Below are positions 15,530 to 43,039 of a stretch of 64,000 bases of DNA, piece after piece. This DNA is from Agrobacterium vitis (GTDB lineage: Bacteria > Pseudomonadota > Alphaproteobacteria > Rhizobiales > Rhizobiaceae): contig NZ_CP146244.1 in NCBI RefSeq assembly GCF_037039395.1, positions 186,001-250,000 on the forward strand. The letters run 5' to 3'. The position numbers were made by a program, and so were the translations under genes. The notes under the pieces are model-generated. The model did no database searches, was not told where the DNA came from, and saw only the letters and a list, made by a program, of their open reading frames with translations. The first letter of the stretch is position 1, and each line of letters starts with the position of its first letter.

Positions 15530-15925
15530 GCCCGCACCTCCAAAACGCGAGGGAAAAGCGGGGTGGCACGCGAACGACCGTCGGACATGCCGAAACGATC
15601 GCGCGAAAAACACGTGAATGGAATTGTCATTACATTATAATCCGCCGGCCATGATTGCTGGCGGTACCGACATCACGAGAGCGCCGTAAACTCTCGCCAG
15701 AGGGGCCCGGCACCATAAGTTCACTCCGCAAAGACCGATGTCTGGCTATGCGGCAGCATATGTTAACTACCAGCCATGCGAGCAAGGTCAAGTGCTGTTG
15801 TGTAAATGCAAACAACCATCGCACAGATAGGCATTCGTAACGTCTGAGGAAACGGCGCTAAAGACGAAAAAGGTGGAGAAAGCATCCTCCACCTTCATCT
15901 GTCGTCTTACCGGTTTGAAATCGGA
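15530..15925. other. Intergenic region between DUF475 and pcaF
   Basis: No convincing gene. On the minus strand a TATAAT hexamer near 15634-15639 could be the DUF475 -10 box. Short hairpins (CGAGAG/CTCTCG at 15676-15696 and CCGCC/GGCGG at 15642-15664) lie upstream of it. I looked for the manganese-riboswitch core common upstream of TerC-like genes and did not find it. The pcaF terminator is at the right end. Confidence 0.5.
15861..15895 (-). terminator. Terminator of the pcaIJF operon
   Basis: On the minus strand a 9-bp stem (15895-15887 with 15878-15870) is followed by TTTTCGTCTTT. It lies about 30 bases beyond the pcaF stop. Confidence 0.8.
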
Positions 15926-34982: not shown

Positions 34983-37103
34983 TCACGGCGCGTTGGCGGC
35001 CTTGGCGGCTAGGGTCGAGGCCGCTGCGGCATCGTTTATCGCCGTGCCATCGGAGCGCACGACCACGGCATTGGAGGCGAGATTGAGCCCTGCGGCCTTG
35101 AAGGCGGCGAGCAGGCGCTTGATGCCTTCGCGTTTGATCAGGCTGGGATTGCCGGGTCGGCAAGTGAACTTAAAGCGGATGACCATGGAGTTTTCGTTGA
35201 CCTCCTGAATGCCCTGCATCTTCAGAGGAATGAGAAAATCACCCGCGAATTCCGGTTCTTCCAACAAGGACAGACCGACTTTCTTGGCCGTCTTGCGGAT
35301 CATTTCCAGATCGGCGTCGCGGTCGAAGCGCAGTTCGAATTTAATCGTGCCCCAATCGCGACTGTAATTGGTAACGGCGGCGATTTGGCCGAAAGGCACT
35401 GTATGCACAGGGCCATTGTGGTGGCGCAAACGAACGGAGCGCAGGGAAATCTGCTCGACAGTACCTTGGAGCTTGCCGACATCGATATATTCGTCGATCC
35501 GGAAGGCATCTTCCGCCAGGAAGAAGATGCCGGAAACGACATCCTTGACGAGGGCTTGCGAGCCGAATGATACGGCCAGGCCAAGCACGCCGAAGCCCGC
35601 GAGAAGCGGTGCCACGTTCACGCCGAGCGAGGTCAGAATGACGAGAAACGCGACCGCCGCCACGGCCCCCATGACCAGATTGCGCACGACAGGCAGAACT
35701 GTTGACAATCGGCTGGTGGTTTTCTGTTCGCCATCATCCTCGTGACCCGGCAGTTTGACGGTATTGACCGGTGAAATGGTGTCAAAAAACTTCCAGAGGA
35801 AGCCGCAGACAAAGGCACTGCAGACGATAGTAATGCCAAATTGTTGCAGATGGTTCAGCCAATAGGAGGCATCCACCCCCGCATTGGCCAGAAGCGGTTG
35901 CCACAGGATGACGGTGATGTGAATTCCAATCAGCCAGATCGCGCCGGAAAACGGAATACGCAAGGCCCAGAGCAGGACCGAGTGCAGGCCCGGACCAAAG
36001 ATGGCTTCCCGTCGTGTCGCCAGATATTGAAACAGGCCGGACACGCCGCGATGCAGGATAGGAATAAGGATGAACAATATCTGGCTGATGCCGGACACGC
36101 GCACCCAGAGGACGTTCTGAGCTGTACCGGCGACCAGAAGACCGAGGAGCCATATGAGAATGGCGGAGACGATGTAGAAATTGGCGATCAGATTACCGGT
36201 AATCCGCTGCCATCCGCTGACATGGCTGGAATGAGAGTTGGCGATGTCGCGCCGTCCGACGATGAACCAGACCAGCAGATAGGCGGTGACGATGGTGGAA
36301 CTGAGGAACAGCCAGCCATCCACCGCCATCGGGGCAAGCCCCCGTGCATCGGCCAGATTAAGGCTGCTATGGGTAAAGCCTGACAGAAAGCCGAAGCCCA
36401 CCATCATTTTCAGATGCCAGGAGGGGTCGGCAATATCGAACAACGGTTCGGAACCATTGATCCTGGCGAAGAGCAGGCGTCCGAAACTGGCAAAGATCGC
36501 TGTCGTCATGGCAATATGAATGAAGCCGAAGGTGACTTCTTTCCCAAATGAACCGGAGACCAGGCCCATATGGGCGCCGTTGCGCGCCAGAACCACGAAG
36601 ATGACAACCGCAAGCAGATCTCCGGCGAGCCGCAGGACTGCCAATAAAGCCTTGGCAAGTGGCCCACGATCCGGCCGAAGACGTGGCATGAGCCGCCCGA
36701 AGGCCAGCAAAAATACGGCGGATGTCGCAAGCCCGGCAATTATGGCGCCTGCGGCCGTCAGGCTGAGTTCCTTCATGCCGGTTTGCTCTTCATGCAAGGA
36801 TTGCATGCTGTTGCTGAATGCCGTCGGCAAGCTTTGCAGTCCTGTCAAGGCGACGGTCCCGCCACGCCGAAGCGCATTTACCACTTCCCCGTAAGCAGCC
36901 GTCATCATGTCCGCTTCCATGCTGGCGGAACTGGATAGCGATTGCTGGGGGGCCGCATTGTTCTGCTCCACAGAGACCTTGGCCGGAACCTTGGTGCTGT
37001 CCTGTGCGGCAACCCGTGACGTTATCCCGCTGGAAAGGCTTGAGAGGAGGAGAATTGCAATGATCAGGCCGGTATGCCGGCACCTTGCGATAAACTGTTT
37101 CAT
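34983..37103 (-). CDS. MscS family mechanosensitive ion channel
   Basis: A 706-residue large MscS-type channel. An N-terminal signal peptide (GLIIAILLLSSLSSGITSRVAA) precedes a short periplasmic region, then about ten membrane segments. The pore-forming MscS core lies near residues 480-560 (VAPLLAGFGVLGLAVSFGSQA, DVVSGIFFLAEDAFRIDEYI) and the beta domain follows, with VPFGQIAAVTNYSRDW near 590. The cytoplasmic C-terminal alpha/beta domain ends near 690. Members release solutes during osmotic downshock. The extra N-terminal helices place it with the longer YbdG/YjeP-like relatives rather than minimal MscS. It stands alone, with no clear operon partner. Confidence 0.9.
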   Translation of the reverse strand: MKQFIARCRHTGLIIAILLLSSLSSGITSRVAAQDSTKVPAKVSVEQNNAAPQQSLSSSASMEADMMTAAYGEVVNALRRGGTVALTGLQSLPTAFSNSMQSLHEEQTGMKELSLTAAGAIIAGLATSAVFLLAFGRLMPRLRPDRGPLAKALLAVLRLAGDLLAVVIFVVLARNGAHMGLVSGSFGKEVTFGFIHIAMTTAIFASFGRLLFARINGSEPLFDIADPSWHLKMMVGFGFLSGFTHSSLNLADARGLAPMAVDGWLFLSSTIVTAYLLVWFIVGRRDIANSHSSHVSGWQRITGNLIANFYIVSAILIWLLGLLVAGTAQNVLWVRVSGISQILFILIPILHRGVSGLFQYLATRREAIFGPGLHSVLLWALRIPFSGAIWLIGIHITVILWQPLLANAGVDASYWLNHLQQFGITIVCSAFVCGFLWKFFDTISPVNTVKLPGHEDDGEQKTTSRLSTVLPVVRNLVMGAVAAVAFLVILTSLGVNVAPLLAGFGVLGLAVSFGSQALVKDVVSGIFFLAEDAFRIDEYIDVGKLQGTVEQISLRSVRLRHHNGPVHTVPFGQIAAVTNYSRDWGTIKFELRFDRDADLEMIRKTAKKVGLSLLEEPEFAGDFLIPLKMQGIQEVNENSMVIRFKFTCRPGNPSLIKREGIKRLLAAFKAAGLNLASNAVVVRSDGTAINDAAAASTLAAKAANAP

Positions 37104-38423: not shown

Positions 38424-38585
38424 ATGACACAAAACGCTAGTAAACCAAGACGTCGCATGCAGATTTTTGTCGGCTCCCTTTTCATCATTGGCTGCCTTAT
38501 CGGTAGTTACTACGTGATTGGCTACCATCCCGGCGAAGTTGAACCTGAAAATCCGCTTGCCAGCTCCAGCCAAACCAATCCGTAA
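38424..38585 (+). CDS. Small single-pass membrane protein, 53 residues
   Basis: A short frame with an Arg/Lys-rich N-terminus (SKPRRRMQ), one hydrophobic helix at about residues 13-33 (IFVGSLFIIGCLIGSYYVIG) and a short acidic, Ser-rich tail, which predicts N-in topology. TTTGAGGTGAC gives a good ribosome site before the ATG. It follows the small secreted protein after about 105 bases. Function unknown. Confidence 0.65.
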   Translation: MTQNASKPRRRMQIFVGSLFIIGCLIGSYYVIGYHPGEVEPENPLASSSQTNP

Positions 38586-38853
38586 GCTCTGCTTTCAGCA
38601 TCGGAGCGAGAAAATAAAAGCGGATATTTAATATATCTAAGTGAAAACAACAGGTTGTAGTGTATCCGCTCTTCGTGAATCACGCTTCTGAAATCATCCA
38701 GTCACGCCGCAACAGTCCTCCTTGTAGAAAGGACGGCTGTTGCTAAAATACCGCAGTCCCTGCGTTTTATCCCAAAATTGCAAATCACTTATTGGCTTCA
38801 GAATCGAGTCGATCTAAAAACCATTTATGTTCAACACCAATCAGGGAGGCTCT
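38586..38853 (+). other. Intergenic region, probable promoter of the exporter leader
   Basis: About 270 bases with no supported gene between the small membrane protein and the leader ORF. The stretch is A/T-rich around 38610-38660 and 38755-38830. A short hairpin (GTCCTCC near 38715 with the downstream GGACGGC) could be a weak terminator of the preceding gene. The transcript of the leader and ABC exporter probably starts in the right part. Confidence 0.4.
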
Positions 38854-38922
38854 ATGGCATATTTTTCCACCTCCCCGGTGGCCAGCGCCAATTTCATGTT
38901 GGCAGGCGCCATCCGCAGTTAA
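38854..38922 (+). CDS. Putative 22-residue leader peptide upstream of ABC exporter
   Basis: A short frame starting MAYFSTSPVASANF and ending AGAIRS, preceded by the strong ribosome site GGGAGG five bases upstream of its ATG. Its stop codon lies inside a small hairpin (38914-38928), directly followed by a perfect 7-bp hairpin (38934-38952). The exporter start is 151 bases downstream. The arrangement of a well-initiated mini-ORF, hairpins and a transporter resembles ribosome-mediated attenuation leaders that respond to translation inhibitors. Not recognised as a named leader. Confidence 0.55.
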   Translation: MAYFSTSPVASANFMLAGAIRS

Positions 38923-39073
38923 GCTGCGTGTGCGTAACGGTCAGTCCGTTACCTTGTGTTGAATCCGGCTGGTCCGGGAATAGAATTTTCTCCCTCTAAC
39001 GCCACTTTATCGCGTTTCCGCGCGGTTTCCATTCTATTCATATGTCGGAGCCGGCTCGCGCCGGAATTTTCCT
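38914..39073 (+). promoter_or_regulatory. Structured leader RNA of the ABC exporter
   Basis: Hairpins in order: CGCAG/CTGCG (38914-38928, containing the leader stop), GTAACGG/CCGTTAC (38934-38952), a CCGG-N5-CCGG pairing shortly after, and CCGG/CCGG (39051-39064) only nine bases before the exporter ATG. No strong free Shine-Dalgarno sequence precedes that ATG; the best match, GGAA, overlaps the last hairpin. The leader could therefore gate translation of the exporter. Confidence 0.45.
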
Positions 39074-40885
39074 ATGGCTTTAGGTTATAAATCTCGCCGT
39101 GGCGGGGCATTTCGCAGCGTTTTCGGTTTCTGTGCTGTTCATTGGCGCCGGCAGCCGGGGCGTGTGGTCTTCATGCTGTTTGCCGTATTGCTTTCCACTT
39201 TGGCGGATGTGTTGACGCCGCTGTTCTCCGGTCGGTTGGTCGATGCGGTCGTTTCCGGTCGCGCCGATGACAGCCTAGCCTGGGGCAGCGCTATGGCGGC
39301 TTTCGCTTGGCTGATGGCGCTTTCCGCCGGAGCAGTCTTGGTGCGTCATGCAACGTTTACCGCCATTATCGGCTTTACGCTGCGCTCCATGTCGGACATT
39401 GCCGCCGATGCCTTCTCCCGCATTCAACGCTTTTCCAGCGATTGGCATGCCAATAGCTTCGCGGGCTCGACGGTGCGCAAAGTGACACGCGGCATGTGGG
39501 CACTCGACCTGTTGAACGATACGGTTTTTGTGGCGCTGTTTCCCTCGCTTGTCATGCTGATCGGCTCCACTGTGCTGATGACGTGGCATTGGCCGATGAT
39601 GGGCTTGTTGGTCGGTGTCGGTTCCGTCTGCTTCGTGTTGTTTACGGCGATCATGGCTCTGCGTTACGTCGCGCCGATGGCCAGCATGGCCAATAGCTGG
39701 GATACCAAGCTGGGTGGGTCTTTGGCCGATGCGGTGACCTGTAATGCCGTGGTCAAGGCCTTCGGTGGGGAAAGCCGCGAGGAAACCCGCTTGAGCTGGG
39801 TGCTGCAAAAATGGCAGGACAGGACACGCCGCACCTGGACGCGCGGCACGCTGAATGGCAGCCTGCAAGCAACTTTGTTGATGGTGCTGCGCGGCGGCGT
39901 TTTAGGTCTGGCCCTGTGGCTATGGAGTGCTGGAAAGGCCAGCCCCGGTGACATTACGTTCGTGCTGACGGCCTTCTTCATCCTACAGGGCTATCTGCGG
40001 GAAATTGGTATGCATATCCGTAACTTGCAACGGTCGGTCAATGATATGGAGGAACTGGTTTTCCTGCATGGTCAACCCCTGGGCGTCGTGGATGTGGCCG
40101 GTGCAAAACCGATTGCGATTGAACGCGGCAAGATCGAATTCGATCGGGTGTCCTTTCACTACGGCAATCATTTTTCGCCGCTCTACAAGGACTTTTCCGT
40201 CGTGATCCAGCCCGGTGAAAAGGTTGGACTGGTTGGCCATTCCGGTTCTGGCAAGACGACGTTCATCAAGCTCATTCAGCGCTTGCATGACGTCAACGGT
40301 GGCGCGATCCGGATCGACGGTCAGGATATCGCACTCGTTGCCCAAACCTCGTTACGCCAGCAGATCGCCATCGTGCAGCAGGAGCCAATCCTGTTCCATC
40401 GCTCGCTTGCTGAAAACATTGCCTATGCGAGGCCCTCAGCAAGTCAGCAGGAAATCGAAACTGCTGCAAGACTTGCCAGCGCCCATGGCTTTATCGAGGC
40501 CTTGCCGAAGGGCTATGGCACGCTGGTGGGTGAGCGCGGCATCAAGCTTTCGGGTGGTGAACGCCAGCGGATAGCGATCGCCCGTGCCTTTCTGGCGGAT
40601 GCGCCGATCCTTATTCTGGACGAGGCAACGTCAAGCCTGGATTCGGAATCGGAAATGCTGATCCAGGAAGCCATGGAACGGCTTATGCAGGGCAGAACCA
40701 CACTGGTCGTGGCGCATCGGTTGTCGACCGTGCGGGCGCTCGACCGGTTGCTGGTCTTCGAACACGGCCGGATCGCCGAGGAGGGGACGCATGAGAGCCT
40801 TATCAGAATGAAGTCAGGCATTTACCGCGGTCTCTTCGAGCGTCAGGCGCTGGAATTGACCAAGGGCATGGTCTTCGGAGAATAG
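39074..40885 (+). CDS. ABC exporter, fused membrane and ATPase domains
   Basis: A 603-residue half-transporter of the MsbA/multidrug type, expected to work as a dimer in the inner membrane. Six membrane helices cover about residues 30-320 (VVFMLFAVLLSTLADVLTPL, LFPSLVMLIGSTVLMTW). The ATPase domain follows, with Walker A GHSGSGKTTF near 390, signature LSGGERQRIAIARAFL near 495, Walker B ILILDEATSSLDSESE near 515 and H-loop VVAHRLSTVRALDR near 550. The substrate is not evident; lipids, glycans or drugs are all possible. A leader peptide and hairpins upstream suggest attenuated, inducible expression. Confidence 0.9.
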   Translation: MALGYKSRRGGAFRSVFGFCAVHWRRQPGRVVFMLFAVLLSTLADVLTPLFSGRLVDAVVSGRADDSLAWGSAMAAFAWLMALSAGAVLVRHATFTAIIGFTLRSMSDIAADAFSRIQRFSSDWHANSFAGSTVRKVTRGMWALDLLNDTVFVALFPSLVMLIGSTVLMTWHWPMMGLLVGVGSVCFVLFTAIMALRYVAPMASMANSWDTKLGGSLADAVTCNAVVKAFGGESREETRLSWVLQKWQDRTRRTWTRGTLNGSLQATLLMVLRGGVLGLALWLWSAGKASPGDITFVLTAFFILQGYLREIGMHIRNLQRSVNDMEELVFLHGQPLGVVDVAGAKPIAIERGKIEFDRVSFHYGNHFSPLYKDFSVVIQPGEKVGLVGHSGSGKTTFIKLIQRLHDVNGGAIRIDGQDIALVAQTSLRQQIAIVQQEPILFHRSLAENIAYARPSASQQEIETAARLASAHGFIEALPKGYGTLVGERGIKLSGGERQRIAIARAFLADAPILILDEATSSLDSESEMLIQEAMERLMQGRTTLVVAHRLSTVRALDRLLVFEHGRIAEEGTHESLIRMKSGIYRGLFERQALELTKGMVFGE

Positions 40886-41016: not shown

Positions 41017-41049
41017 ATACCAAGGGTCATTGAAGATGGCCCTTGGTAT
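41017..41049. repeat. Short palindromic repeat at a gene 3' end
   Basis: ATACCAAGGG (41017-41026) and CCCTTGGTAT (41040-41049) form a perfect 10-bp inverted repeat. The left 24 bases resemble 26407-26430. It overlaps the histidine kinase stop codon. There is no T run, so a simple terminator is unlikely. Confidence 0.6.
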
Positions 41050-42350
41050 CAGATCTGCCGTATGGCGTTGTGGCTTTCTGGCCGGATGTCGCCATCCCCG
41101 GGCAATATCATGGTGATCCGCAAGCCTTTCGGTGTGACATTGCTGGCAAAGACCCTGCCGCCATGCCGCTCCACCGCCGTCTTGGCAATTGCCAGGCCCA
41201 GGCCATATCCGGATGCACTGCCGCTGCTGCCTGAACTGATAAAGGGGCGAAAAATACTCTCAAGGTCGTCTTCCTTGACGCCCGGACCTTCGTCCGTGAA
41301 GGTGAGCATCAGGCCATTCGGTGAAATGTTCGTTGAAATCCGGATTACTGTCGCTTCTCCGGTATATTTGATCGCATTGCGCAAGACGTTCTCAATGGCG
41401 CGATAGATAAGCTCACCATTGACAGCGGCGACAAAACTACCGCTGCGCTGAAAATCAATTGATACGGCCTTTTCCTGGGCTTCAAAAGTTGCGTCCTGAA
41501 CAATCTCATCGAGAATGTCGAGAATATCGATGACCAGGAGCTGATTTTCTTCATCTGTCTTGGAGGAAAGCCTGGCCAGGGTGAGGATCTCACCGACCAG
41601 CCGGTCCAGTCGCTCAATTTCGTGGTCCATGCGATCCAGCAGGCCGGGCAGGCGGCCTGGGTTTTTCCGCAGGATACCGGTAACGGCTTGCAGGCGCGAC
41701 AAGGGTGAGCGTAGTTCGTGGGAAATGTCATGAAACAGCCGTTCCCGGCTCTCGTGCAGTTCCTGTAGGCGCATGGCGCTGATATCGAAATGCTGCGTCA
41801 GAATTCCGATTTCATCCTTTCGATTTTTGACAGGATCATGGATACGGATGTTGAAGTGGCCTTCTGCCAGCATTTTCAGTCCATGGCGAAGCCGCTCAAT
41901 GGGTGTCAGCAAATATTTCGTCAGCAGGTAAGCGGAAAACAGGCTGGCGACGAGGCCTATCACCCAAGGCAAAACAAATGGCCAGTTATTGCTGATAGAC
42001 GCTTCATCGATGGTCAGGGTGTAGCATTGGTTGGCGTGATATATGGCAATGCTGCCCGGAAATTGATCCCTGGCGCAGGCTTGTGAGTCAGCGGCCTGCA
42101 CTGCCTGCAGCTGGAAATGCCCATCTTCTCCCGGAGGTGTTATGCTGCGGATAAACGCCTGTGTCTCCTGCGGCCCGACACGTTGGAGCATCTCGGCAAT
42201 TTGCGCGGCAATGATTTTGTTCTGTACCTCAGCGATGCGCATATGCGGCGGCAGCTGGCCGTTGAAGCGCGGAAGCGATATGCCCAGCATGGTTGTCAGC
42301 GTGATTGTCAGCCAGACAATGACGAAAAAACGCCAGAAAAGCCTTGGCAT
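41049..42350 (-). CDS. CpxA-like sensor histidine kinase
   Basis: A 433-residue inner-membrane kinase. N-terminal helix FVIVWLTITLTTMLGISL is followed by a periplasmic region of about 110 residues with two cysteines. The second helix FVLPWVIGLVASLFSAYLL near 150 precedes HAMP, the phospho-acceptor box FHDISHELRSPLSRL near 233, and the ATPase domain (YRAIENVLRNAIKYTG, TDEGPGVKEDDLE, GYGLGLAIAKTAVERHGG). Start overlaps the response regulator stop by one base. The domain layout, the response-regulator partner and the Cpx-type box upstream support an envelope-stress sensor. The signal is not known in this group. Confidence 0.85.
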   Translation of the reverse strand: MPRLFWRFFVIVWLTITLTTMLGISLPRFNGQLPPHMRIAEVQNKIIAAQIAEMLQRVGPQETQAFIRSITPPGEDGHFQLQAVQAADSQACARDQFPGSIAIYHANQCYTLTIDEASISNNWPFVLPWVIGLVASLFSAYLLTKYLLTPIERLRHGLKMLAEGHFNIRIHDPVKNRKDEIGILTQHFDISAMRLQELHESRERLFHDISHELRSPLSRLQAVTGILRKNPGRLPGLLDRMDHEIERLDRLVGEILTLARLSSKTDEENQLLVIDILDILDEIVQDATFEAQEKAVSIDFQRSGSFVAAVNGELIYRAIENVLRNAIKYTGEATVIRISTNISPNGLMLTFTDEGPGVKEDDLESIFRPFISSGSSGSASGYGLGLAIAKTAVERHGGRVFASNVTPKGLRITMILPGDGDIRPESHNAIRQI

Positions 42351-43039
42351 CAGCTATCCTGTAGCAGAATATAACCCTGCCCCCGCACAGACTGGATCCA
42401 GCTTTGTCGGTCTTTTCTGAGGCCGAGTTTCTGGCGGATACTGCTGAGATGGACATCGATGCGCCGGTCGAAAGGCGTCAGGGGCCTGCCGAATACGCTT
42501 TGGGAAATATCGTGTTTGGAGACCACCTTGCCGCCATTGCGGACCAGCAGCTCCAGAAGATTGTATTCTGTCCCCGTCAAGGCAAGAGCCTCACCATTGA
42601 TATGTGCCTGCCTGCTCGACGGATAAAGAACGAGCTCGCCGCTTTTGAGCGGCTGAGATGGATGTTCGGGCGGCGTTTTGCCCGTACGACGCAATATTGC
42701 CCGCAGCCGCGCCACCAGTTCGCCAGGCGAACAGGGTTTGGAGACGTAGTCGTCGGCACCAAGATCCAGGCCGGTAATCCGGTCCTTGTCATCCCCCCTG
42801 GCTGTCAGCATGACGATAGGAATTTCACTGGATTTTCGGATGTTCTGCAACACGTCCACACCATTCATGATCGGCATCATGACGTCGAGAACGATAATGT
42901 CTGTCGCCCCACTGTCGACAAAAGCAAGCCCCTTGGCGCCATCGTCTGTCGCGAGTACATCAAATCCTTCATCCGTCAGGTATTCGCAAAGCAATCCGGT
43001 AAATTCCAGGTCGTCATCAATCAAAAGAACACGCGTCAT
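42350..43039 (-). CDS. CpxR-like OmpR family response regulator
   Basis: A 229-residue response regulator. The receiver has the acidic pocket D8-D9-D10, phospho-acceptor D52 in IIVLDVMMPIMNG, and the conserved Lys in DDYVSKPCSPGEL. The C-terminal OmpR/PhoB winged helix ends SWIQSVRGQGYILLQ. It is the first gene of the pair with the CpxA-like kinase. A perfect GTAAA-N5-GTAAA box 60 bases upstream suggests autoregulation. Confidence 0.88.
   Translation of the reverse strand: MTRVLLIDDDLEFTGLLCEYLTDEGFDVLATDDGAKGLAFVDSGATDIIVLDVMMPIMNGVDVLQNIRKSSEIPIVMLTARGDDKDRITGLDLGADDYVSKPCSPGELVARLRAILRRTGKTPPEHPSQPLKSGELVLYPSSRQAHINGEALALTGTEYNLLELLVRNGGKVVSKHDISQSVFGRPLTPFDRRIDVHLSSIRQKLGLRKDRQSWIQSVRGQGYILLQDS

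Follow-up and report, generated by a model that had tools for sequence, protein, structure and literature searches.

The genes for ExsA-type ABC exporters in many families of the Hyphomicrobiales are preceded by a conserved mRNA leader. In this leader a short upstream open reading frame (uORF) with a strong ribosome site tends to carry a hairpin around its stop codon, an untranslated spacer biased toward C over G follows, and a covarying hairpin appears to bridge the distance between the Shine-Dalgarno (SD) sequence of the exporter and its start codon. We describe the leader here from the window, which is the whole 64,000-nucleotide stretch of Agrobacterium vitis DNA that was analysed, and from the upstream regions of related exporters. 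The reading that we favour, tentatively and at a little under even confidence, is that of a cis-regulatory leader that acts by transcription attenuation, probably by Rho, and that is gated by ribosomes on the uORF. The recurrence of one layout in many related bacteria suggests that it is probably an undescribed ribosome switch on the production of a pump.

The exporter and the parts of its leader

The gene downstream of the leader, in a genome of 6.0 Mb, encodes a protein with the Pfam domains ABC_membrane and ABC_tran; its closest named relatives are those of Agrobacterium (Allorhizobium) vitis strains (98–99% identity), and all 25 of the NCBIfam models shown for it score under their cut-offs. 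In Sinorhizobium meliloti ABS7 the orthologue is a pSymB gene, with exoZ preceding it and queC-queD-queE following. This neighbourhood is the place of exsA (exsBCD have been renamed queCDE; PMC3568095), and on that synteny we read the exporter as the orthologue of S. meliloti ExsA, described as an ABC transporter important for the secretion of high-molecular-weight succinoglycan (PMC3233446). The exsA gene has been listed among those up-regulated under predation by Myxococcus (PMC10315480). MsbA2 was considered as the S. meliloti orthologue and rejected, since it is placed at 938 kb of pSymB (PMC3687685) and the orthologue of the exporter lies at 1166 kb. The exporter match in Sinorhizobium terangae (L083, 4001–6495) is about 700 nt longer than the others, perhaps through an insertion in the gene.

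The leader and the gene that follows it comprise these features:

38792..38820, plus strand: predicted promoter TTGGCT-N17-TAAAAA, from sequence and from the recurrence of the site in the family, with the transcript start predicted near 38827
38844..38849, plus strand: SD sequence of the uORF, GGGAGG, ending 4 nt before the ATG, from sequence
38854..38922, plus strand: uORF of 22 codons, MAYFSTSPVASANFMLAGAIRS, stop TAA, from sequence, with counterparts in 144 of 172 upstreams and a peptide conserved in the clade
38914..38928, plus strand: stop-codon hairpin CGCAGT-taa-GCTGCG, with the uORF stop in its loop, from the local fold and a family-wide score
38934..38952, plus strand: perfect 7-bp hairpin after the uORF, from the local fold (z −2.72), terminator-like in a scan
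38965..38977, plus strand: small CCGG hairpin in the spacer, from the local fold (z −1.31)
38923..39046, plus strand: untranslated spacer from the uORF to the exporter SD, a candidate Rho loading region by its composition
39047..39050, plus strand: SD sequence of the exporter, GGAG, 23 nt from the ATG, from sequence and the split-site filter
39051..39064, plus strand: bridging (last) hairpin CCGGC-TCGC-GCCGG, ending 9 nt before the exporter ATG at 39074, from covariation
39074..40885, plus strand: ExsA-type ABC exporter, 603 amino acids, from its domains and the synteny of the S. meliloti orthologue

The original prediction had proposed a 22-codon frame with an excellent ribosome site, ending inside a hairpin and followed at once by a perfect 7-bp hairpin, and all three elements are present at these positions. 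Taken alone, the hairpins of the window are moderately unusual (z −1.77 for the stop-codon hairpin and −1.33 for the last, beside the two values listed), and the 7-bp hairpin shows one compensatory change (T-A to C-G) in an 80%-identical relative, L009. We do not claim the small-ORF start at 38827, which shares the frame of the uORF, since L009 has lost it. The SD sequence of the uORF can pair with CCTCCC at 38870–38875 within the uORF, and does so in the local fold; across the family a hairpin between this SD and CUCC codons is strong in several groups and weak overall (15.0 against 13.4 for codon shuffles over 144 leaders, 102 of the 144 lying above the shuffle mean), so we do not claim it as a general feature.

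Several other features lie near the leader and the exporter. Directly upstream of the leader, at 38424–38585 on the plus strand, lies an ORF of 53 codons. It has a GAGG that resembles a ribosome site, a single predicted hydrophobic stretch and no match in Pfam or NCBIfam. The palindrome CGCAGTCCCTGCG (38752–38764), terminator-like on both strands, stands between this ORF and the leader promoter. A histidine kinase and a response regulator (41049–43039, minus strand), whose best NCBIfam relatives, below cut-off, are CpxA and CpxR, are convergent with the exporter. The window also holds a gene for a large MscS-type mechanosensitive channel protein (34983–37103, minus strand) and a terC RNA (15658–15718, minus strand; Rfam RF03067, 62.8 bits).

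Recurrence of the layout and the split ribosome site

The layout was sought in 172 exporter upstreams, comprising 80 loci of named genomes, 29 loci and 60 stretches of other genomes of the order, two plasmid loci and the window; the search of the order's genomes gave an exporter match at threshold in 87 of 397, and one match, G404, was left out of the set. S. meliloti 1021 (L126), being a second S. meliloti, stands outside the 172, and its uORF is present (MKAFSSPYGADPRS). Upstreams of probable paralogues that have no leader were retained in the denominators, and exporter starts were re-chosen in an interval of −60 to +45 nt around the aligned one. Both filters were fixed: the uORF filter took an ATG-started frame of 12–30 codons with an SD core at −270 to −150, and the split-site filter an SD core 0–2 nt ahead of a stem of 5 bp or more, with the end of the stem 5–12 nt upstream of the start. 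Controls were 349 other genes in the named-genome loci, called as ORFs of at least 150 amino acids.

A uORF with a strong ribosome site is present in 144 of the 172 exporter upstreams against 4 of the 349 controls, the SD-hairpin-ATG layout in 132 against 3, and the two together in 125 against 0, a comparison that is flattered because the controls were called by longest ORF, so that some of their starts are wrong and their counts are lowered; a linear SD core is present in just 88 of the 349. The 125 complete cases span many Hyphomicrobiales families (the names of some genome groups are inferred), and the lack of conservation of the mini-ORF among orthologues, which the original prediction had named as refuting, is not seen. 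Of the incomplete upstreams, 19 carry a uORF alone, 7 a split site alone, and 21 lack both. Near misses include L097, with an 11-codon ORF, and L153, L163 and L167, with TTG-start candidates; other misses are probable paralogues.

The leader seems to travel with the exporter, also in the betaproteobacterial genus Pigmentiphaga, where loci L112–L114 and L121 carry the uORF and L112 passes the split-site filter too. By DNA similarity the leader was matched in 14 of 150 genomes: eight, the window's own genome included, have the full leader at 97–100%, one has it at 80%, and the remainder are short fragments. A scan of 90 genomes for GGAGCCGG...CCGG...ATG gave 4 matches (both strands) in the window's genome against 2 for the reversed control; therefore such sites are not common.

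What is kept between genera is the SD-hairpin-ATG spacing. The distance from stem to ATG is 8, 9 or 10 nt in 127 of the 132 split sites, the linear distance from SD to ATG is 22–37 nt (median 28), and an SD core at normal distance is absent in 119 of the 132. Each peptide cluster among the 144 upstreams with a uORF contributed one representative, giving 49 at <50% identity and 65 at <62%; the covariation alignment uses the 65, unselected for pairing, and the folding statistics use the 52 of these in which the filter finds a split site. At the five bridging positions, 92.6% of cells hold a standard pair, against 80.2% when shuffled and 28–42% when slid by 1–3 columns. Furthermore, 36 cells are double-changed against 7.8 in shuffles, with both sides changed at all five pairs, and compensatory change, which had been proposed earlier as a check on the stems, is thus borne out for the last hairpin.

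Local folding predicts the bridging hairpin at the 52 split sites (a mean of 0.86, with 46 sites above 0.7), and the region from SD to ATG folds better than its dinucleotide shuffles (mean z −1.17). The exporter SD is unpaired at a mean of 0.41, above 0.7 in 4 sites and below 0.3 in 16, and S. meliloti L089 prefers an alternative fold, with the bridging hairpin at 0.01. Because pairing is high in the covariation but the SD is not clearly open in the folds, the bridge is well supported by evolution and less so by thermodynamics. On comparative grounds, the last hairpin appears to bridge an SD that lies at this unusual distance from the ATG, rather than simply to hide it. The original prediction had this hairpin cover the ribosome site nine bases before the ATG; the distance is right, and the SD is not inside the hairpin, GGAG lying directly 5′ of the stem. 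In the local fold of the window GGAG pairs with a UUCC located after the last stem, so that the word "covers" is locally right; this UUCC is found in 4 of 4 A. vitis relatives and is missing from three other aligned species.

Phage T4 offers a likeness to this arrangement in its genes 38 and 25: there a hairpin lying between the SD and the AUG is described as shortening the spacing from 22 to 5 nt and from 27 to 11 nt, as it would here from a median of 28 to 8–10 nt, and initiation falls in mutants whose structure is destabilised (PMC3014915). Those are phage genes that have no uORF, and their split sites are supported by structure probing and mutants, whereas the data here are comparative only. 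The split site is a comparative, testable case in which RNA structure may enable, rather than block, the translation of a bacterial gene. If true, it would to our knowledge be the first hairpin-bridged ribosome site so widely conserved in bacterial genes.

The upstream open reading frame and the spacer

A promoter-like site, TTG[AG]C-N16..19-TA, ends 32–41 nt before the uORF ATG in 32 of the 65 representatives, against 1.2 expected from letter shuffles. An E. coli-type promoter scan did not list the TTGGCT-N17-TAAAAA of the window; it gave one site inside the leader, at 38959–38986 (9/12), where 0.6 are expected by chance. A transcript start downstream of 38922, the outcome that the original prediction had set against itself, was not found, and the conserved, predicted site lies upstream of the ORF.

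The start of the uORF, its ribosome site and its position are kept, and its peptide drifts between families. Synonymous bias was assessed by a column-permutation test on 13 group alignments of codons. With p values uncorrected for multiple tests, the Agrobacterium group has 162 amino-acid differences against 282 expected (p = 0.0005), or 182 against 310 with the window (p = 0.0005), and differences are also fewer than expected in Devosia (p = 0.0005), a Mesorhizobium group (p = 0.016) and a Bradyrhizobium-like group (p = 0.045). Synonymous-biased conservation of the peptide thus holds in five of the thirteen group alignments, the window's clade included, and the permutation test finds no synonymous bias in the other eight; two of the five positive alignments (those at 0.016 and 0.045) would fail correction for 13 tests, and the protein alignment of gapped groups leans the test toward finding such bias.

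Biases also mark the end of the frame. A pyrimidine precedes the stop in 47 of the 49 representatives (background 0.50, from ORFs of at least 200 amino acids), the stop is UAG in 32 (background 0.23), and Arg stands within the last two residues in 32 (background 0.28). P-x-G occurs in 15 of the 49 peptides against 5.1 when shuffled, and of the 102 Arg codons in these uORFs 26 are CGA, compared with 94 of 3791 in the exporter genes, which makes CGA about ten times commoner in the uORFs. Part of this preference for Arg and CGA near the stop may serve the stop-codon hairpin rather than the peptide. That hairpin scores at least 11 in 30 of 65 representatives against 17.1 (s.d. 3.2) when 3′ partners are dealt among sequences, and at least 9 in 44 against 34.6. 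Against dinucleotide shuffles in the 52 representatives, the 60 nt after the stop and the 60 nt before the exporter SD have mean z of −1.24 and −0.89, and the uORF region folds less clearly better (−0.39). The macrolide-stall motif [RK]x[RK] occurs in 20 of 49 peptides against 10.1 expected and is not claimed, because the stop-codon hairpin may account for Arg near the end of the ORF. In S. meliloti-type uORFs (L089, L100, L102), two one-base indels put the middle of the uORF in another frame and leave its end in the original one; they appear to be mutually compensating, which fits a frame whose end matters. In L070 and L075, also from Sinorhizobium, the ORF extends to a later stop.

In the untranslated spacer, about 70–180 nt long across leaders, C outnumbers G in 123 of 125 cases (mean C 0.335, mean G 0.235), and mean (C−G)/length in control upstreams is 0.000 (n = 629). 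The best 60 nt reach a (C−G)/length of at least 0.15 in 79% of the 144 leaders against 23% of the 629 controls. The spacer of the window is weakly C-rich, with 34 C and 29 G of 124; its best 60 nt, at 38987, have a (C−G)/length of 0.20, a value that 9.5% of controls reach.

The proposed attenuation, its rivals and known systems

The C-rich spacer across the family, taken together with a precedent in S. meliloti, leads us to favour ribosome-gated attenuation, probably by Rho. In that precedent, a DUF1127 gene is preceded by a uORF and then a C-rich element, and tetracycline lifts an attenuation in which the authors infer a role for Rho (PMC12218461). For the exporters, the transcript would start about 25 nt before the uORF, and ribosomes would translate the uORF. 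In ordinary growth they would finish it and depart, and a factor, probably Rho, would load on the free spacer and halt transcription ahead of or early in the exporter gene. A ribosome held at the start or the end of the uORF, whether by a translation inhibitor, by slow decoding or by a nascent-peptide ligand, would block this loading, so that the full mRNA is made; the exporter would then be translated from its split site, where the last hairpin would bring the SD to working distance. Rho, the signal, the holding of the ribosome, the on/off direction and the translation of the uORF are all parts of this model that we infer, and it counts against Rho attenuation that C richness can have other causes.

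We give distinctly less credence to a reading in which the leaders form an undescribed class, kept over much of the order, where the end of the mini-ORF senses a compound that the exporter removes and the output is made through the split ribosome site. The sensing end would then comprise the Arg near the end, the pyrimidine followed by UAG, and the stop in a hairpin loop.

Translational attenuators of the erm kind work with mutually exclusive hairpins. Such a mechanism here, in which a ribosome stalled on the uORF shifts the hairpins and frees the exporter site with no premature termination, appears rather unlikely to us, even though the uORF, the stop-codon hairpin, the following hairpins and the structured exporter site are all conserved and E. 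coli toiL is reported as a case with drug-stalled ribosomes (PMC12121999). When the start, middle, stop or whole of the uORF was blocked in folding of 125 leaders, the mean accessibility of the exporter SD was 0.21–0.25 against 0.23 when free, and a ribosome at the stop raised it by more than 0.2 in 2 of the 125 and had it fall in 5, which argues against attenuation by re-pairing, within the limits of a thermodynamic folding that can miss co-transcriptional switches and pseudoknots. The remodelling that the original prediction had placed at its centre, with stalling freeing the exporter site, thus finds no counterpart in these in silico accessibilities.

The uORF might instead be translated and sense nothing, setting a fixed basal level, protecting the 5′ end or preventing interference, with the split site giving a rate that is constitutive or that depends on temperature or a ligand, as in a thermometer or riboswitch. 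The free drift of the peptide in several groups and the strong conservation of the bridging hairpin alone speak for this; the biases at the uORF end and in spacer composition have no place in it, and no known RNA family matches. We hold it to be improbable. More doubtful still is nascent-peptide arrest at termination, in which the uORF end would be a tnaC-like sensor of a ligand or drug and the arrested ribosome the signal, whatever the output. The enriched Arg in the last two residues, the pyrimidine before the stop, UAG and P-x-G would suit it, as would the conservation of the peptide in some clades, but the motif is loose, some families lack it, and the stop-codon hairpin accounts for part of it. 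Finally, a terminator scan gave 4 sites in the region where 0.5 were expected; the palindrome ahead of the promoter, counted once on each strand, supplies two of these. Intrinsic termination at the 7-bp or the last hairpin, both listed as terminator-like by the scan, is very improbable given the tails CTTGTGTTGA and AATTTTCCTA in this species and a stretch after the last stem that is mostly not T-rich in the 65 representatives.

That no named leader of this kind was known is upheld by our searches: Rfam 15 gave no match in the leader at the gathering threshold or at E ≤ 1, and none at gathering in 14 orthologous loci, and a full-text literature search found no description of the leader, nor of leader regulation for S. 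meliloti exsA, the orthologous gene beside exoZ and queCDE. The uORF itself may be contained in an S. meliloti Ribo-seq paper (PMC10117765). Because the layout is retained across the Hyphomicrobiales, and the uORF also in a betaproteobacterial genus, the signal can be sought in S. meliloti, a laboratory model that carries exsA in its succinoglycan region. Among Gram-negative soil bacteria, few switches based on a uORF have been described.

It is informative to set the proposed ribosome-gated attenuation of the exporters beside the systems that it resembles. One of the closest is the duf1127-1 leader of S. meliloti (PMC12218461), likewise in the Hyphomicrobiales, with a uORF near the transcript start, a long leader (279 nt there), a hairpin predicted between the uORF ribosome site and C-rich codons, and a C-rich, G-poor element after the uORF (45 nt, 38% C and 18% G there). 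It differs in that the gene is another, that by mutation the RNA and not the peptide matters, that regulation by tetracycline has been shown, and that a split ribosome site is not mentioned in the available text of that account. Attenuation of this kind is known for tnaC of E. coli, where, as perhaps here, the uORF end can hold the ribosome with a Rho region immediately downstream; tnaC, however, stalls at Pro24 with tryptophan (PMC12218461), whereas the leader here has no known ligand and no strict peptide, and its stop lies in a hairpin loop. CruR (bp2923) of Bordetella couples a uORF with a C-terminal arrest motif to Rho termination, but it is described as a DUF2946 protein with CXXC and RAPP motifs that senses copper (PMC9426467), none of which is seen here. 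For toiL of E. coli topAI, the proposal is that a uORF senses antibiotics directed at the ribosome, with termination by Rho further downstream; the ribosome site there is occluded by a structure and becomes open upon stalling (PMC12121999), whereas folding here gives no such switch. Attenuators with a uORF and split ribosome sites are both of known kinds, and their combination, together with its wide retention, is as far as we know new.
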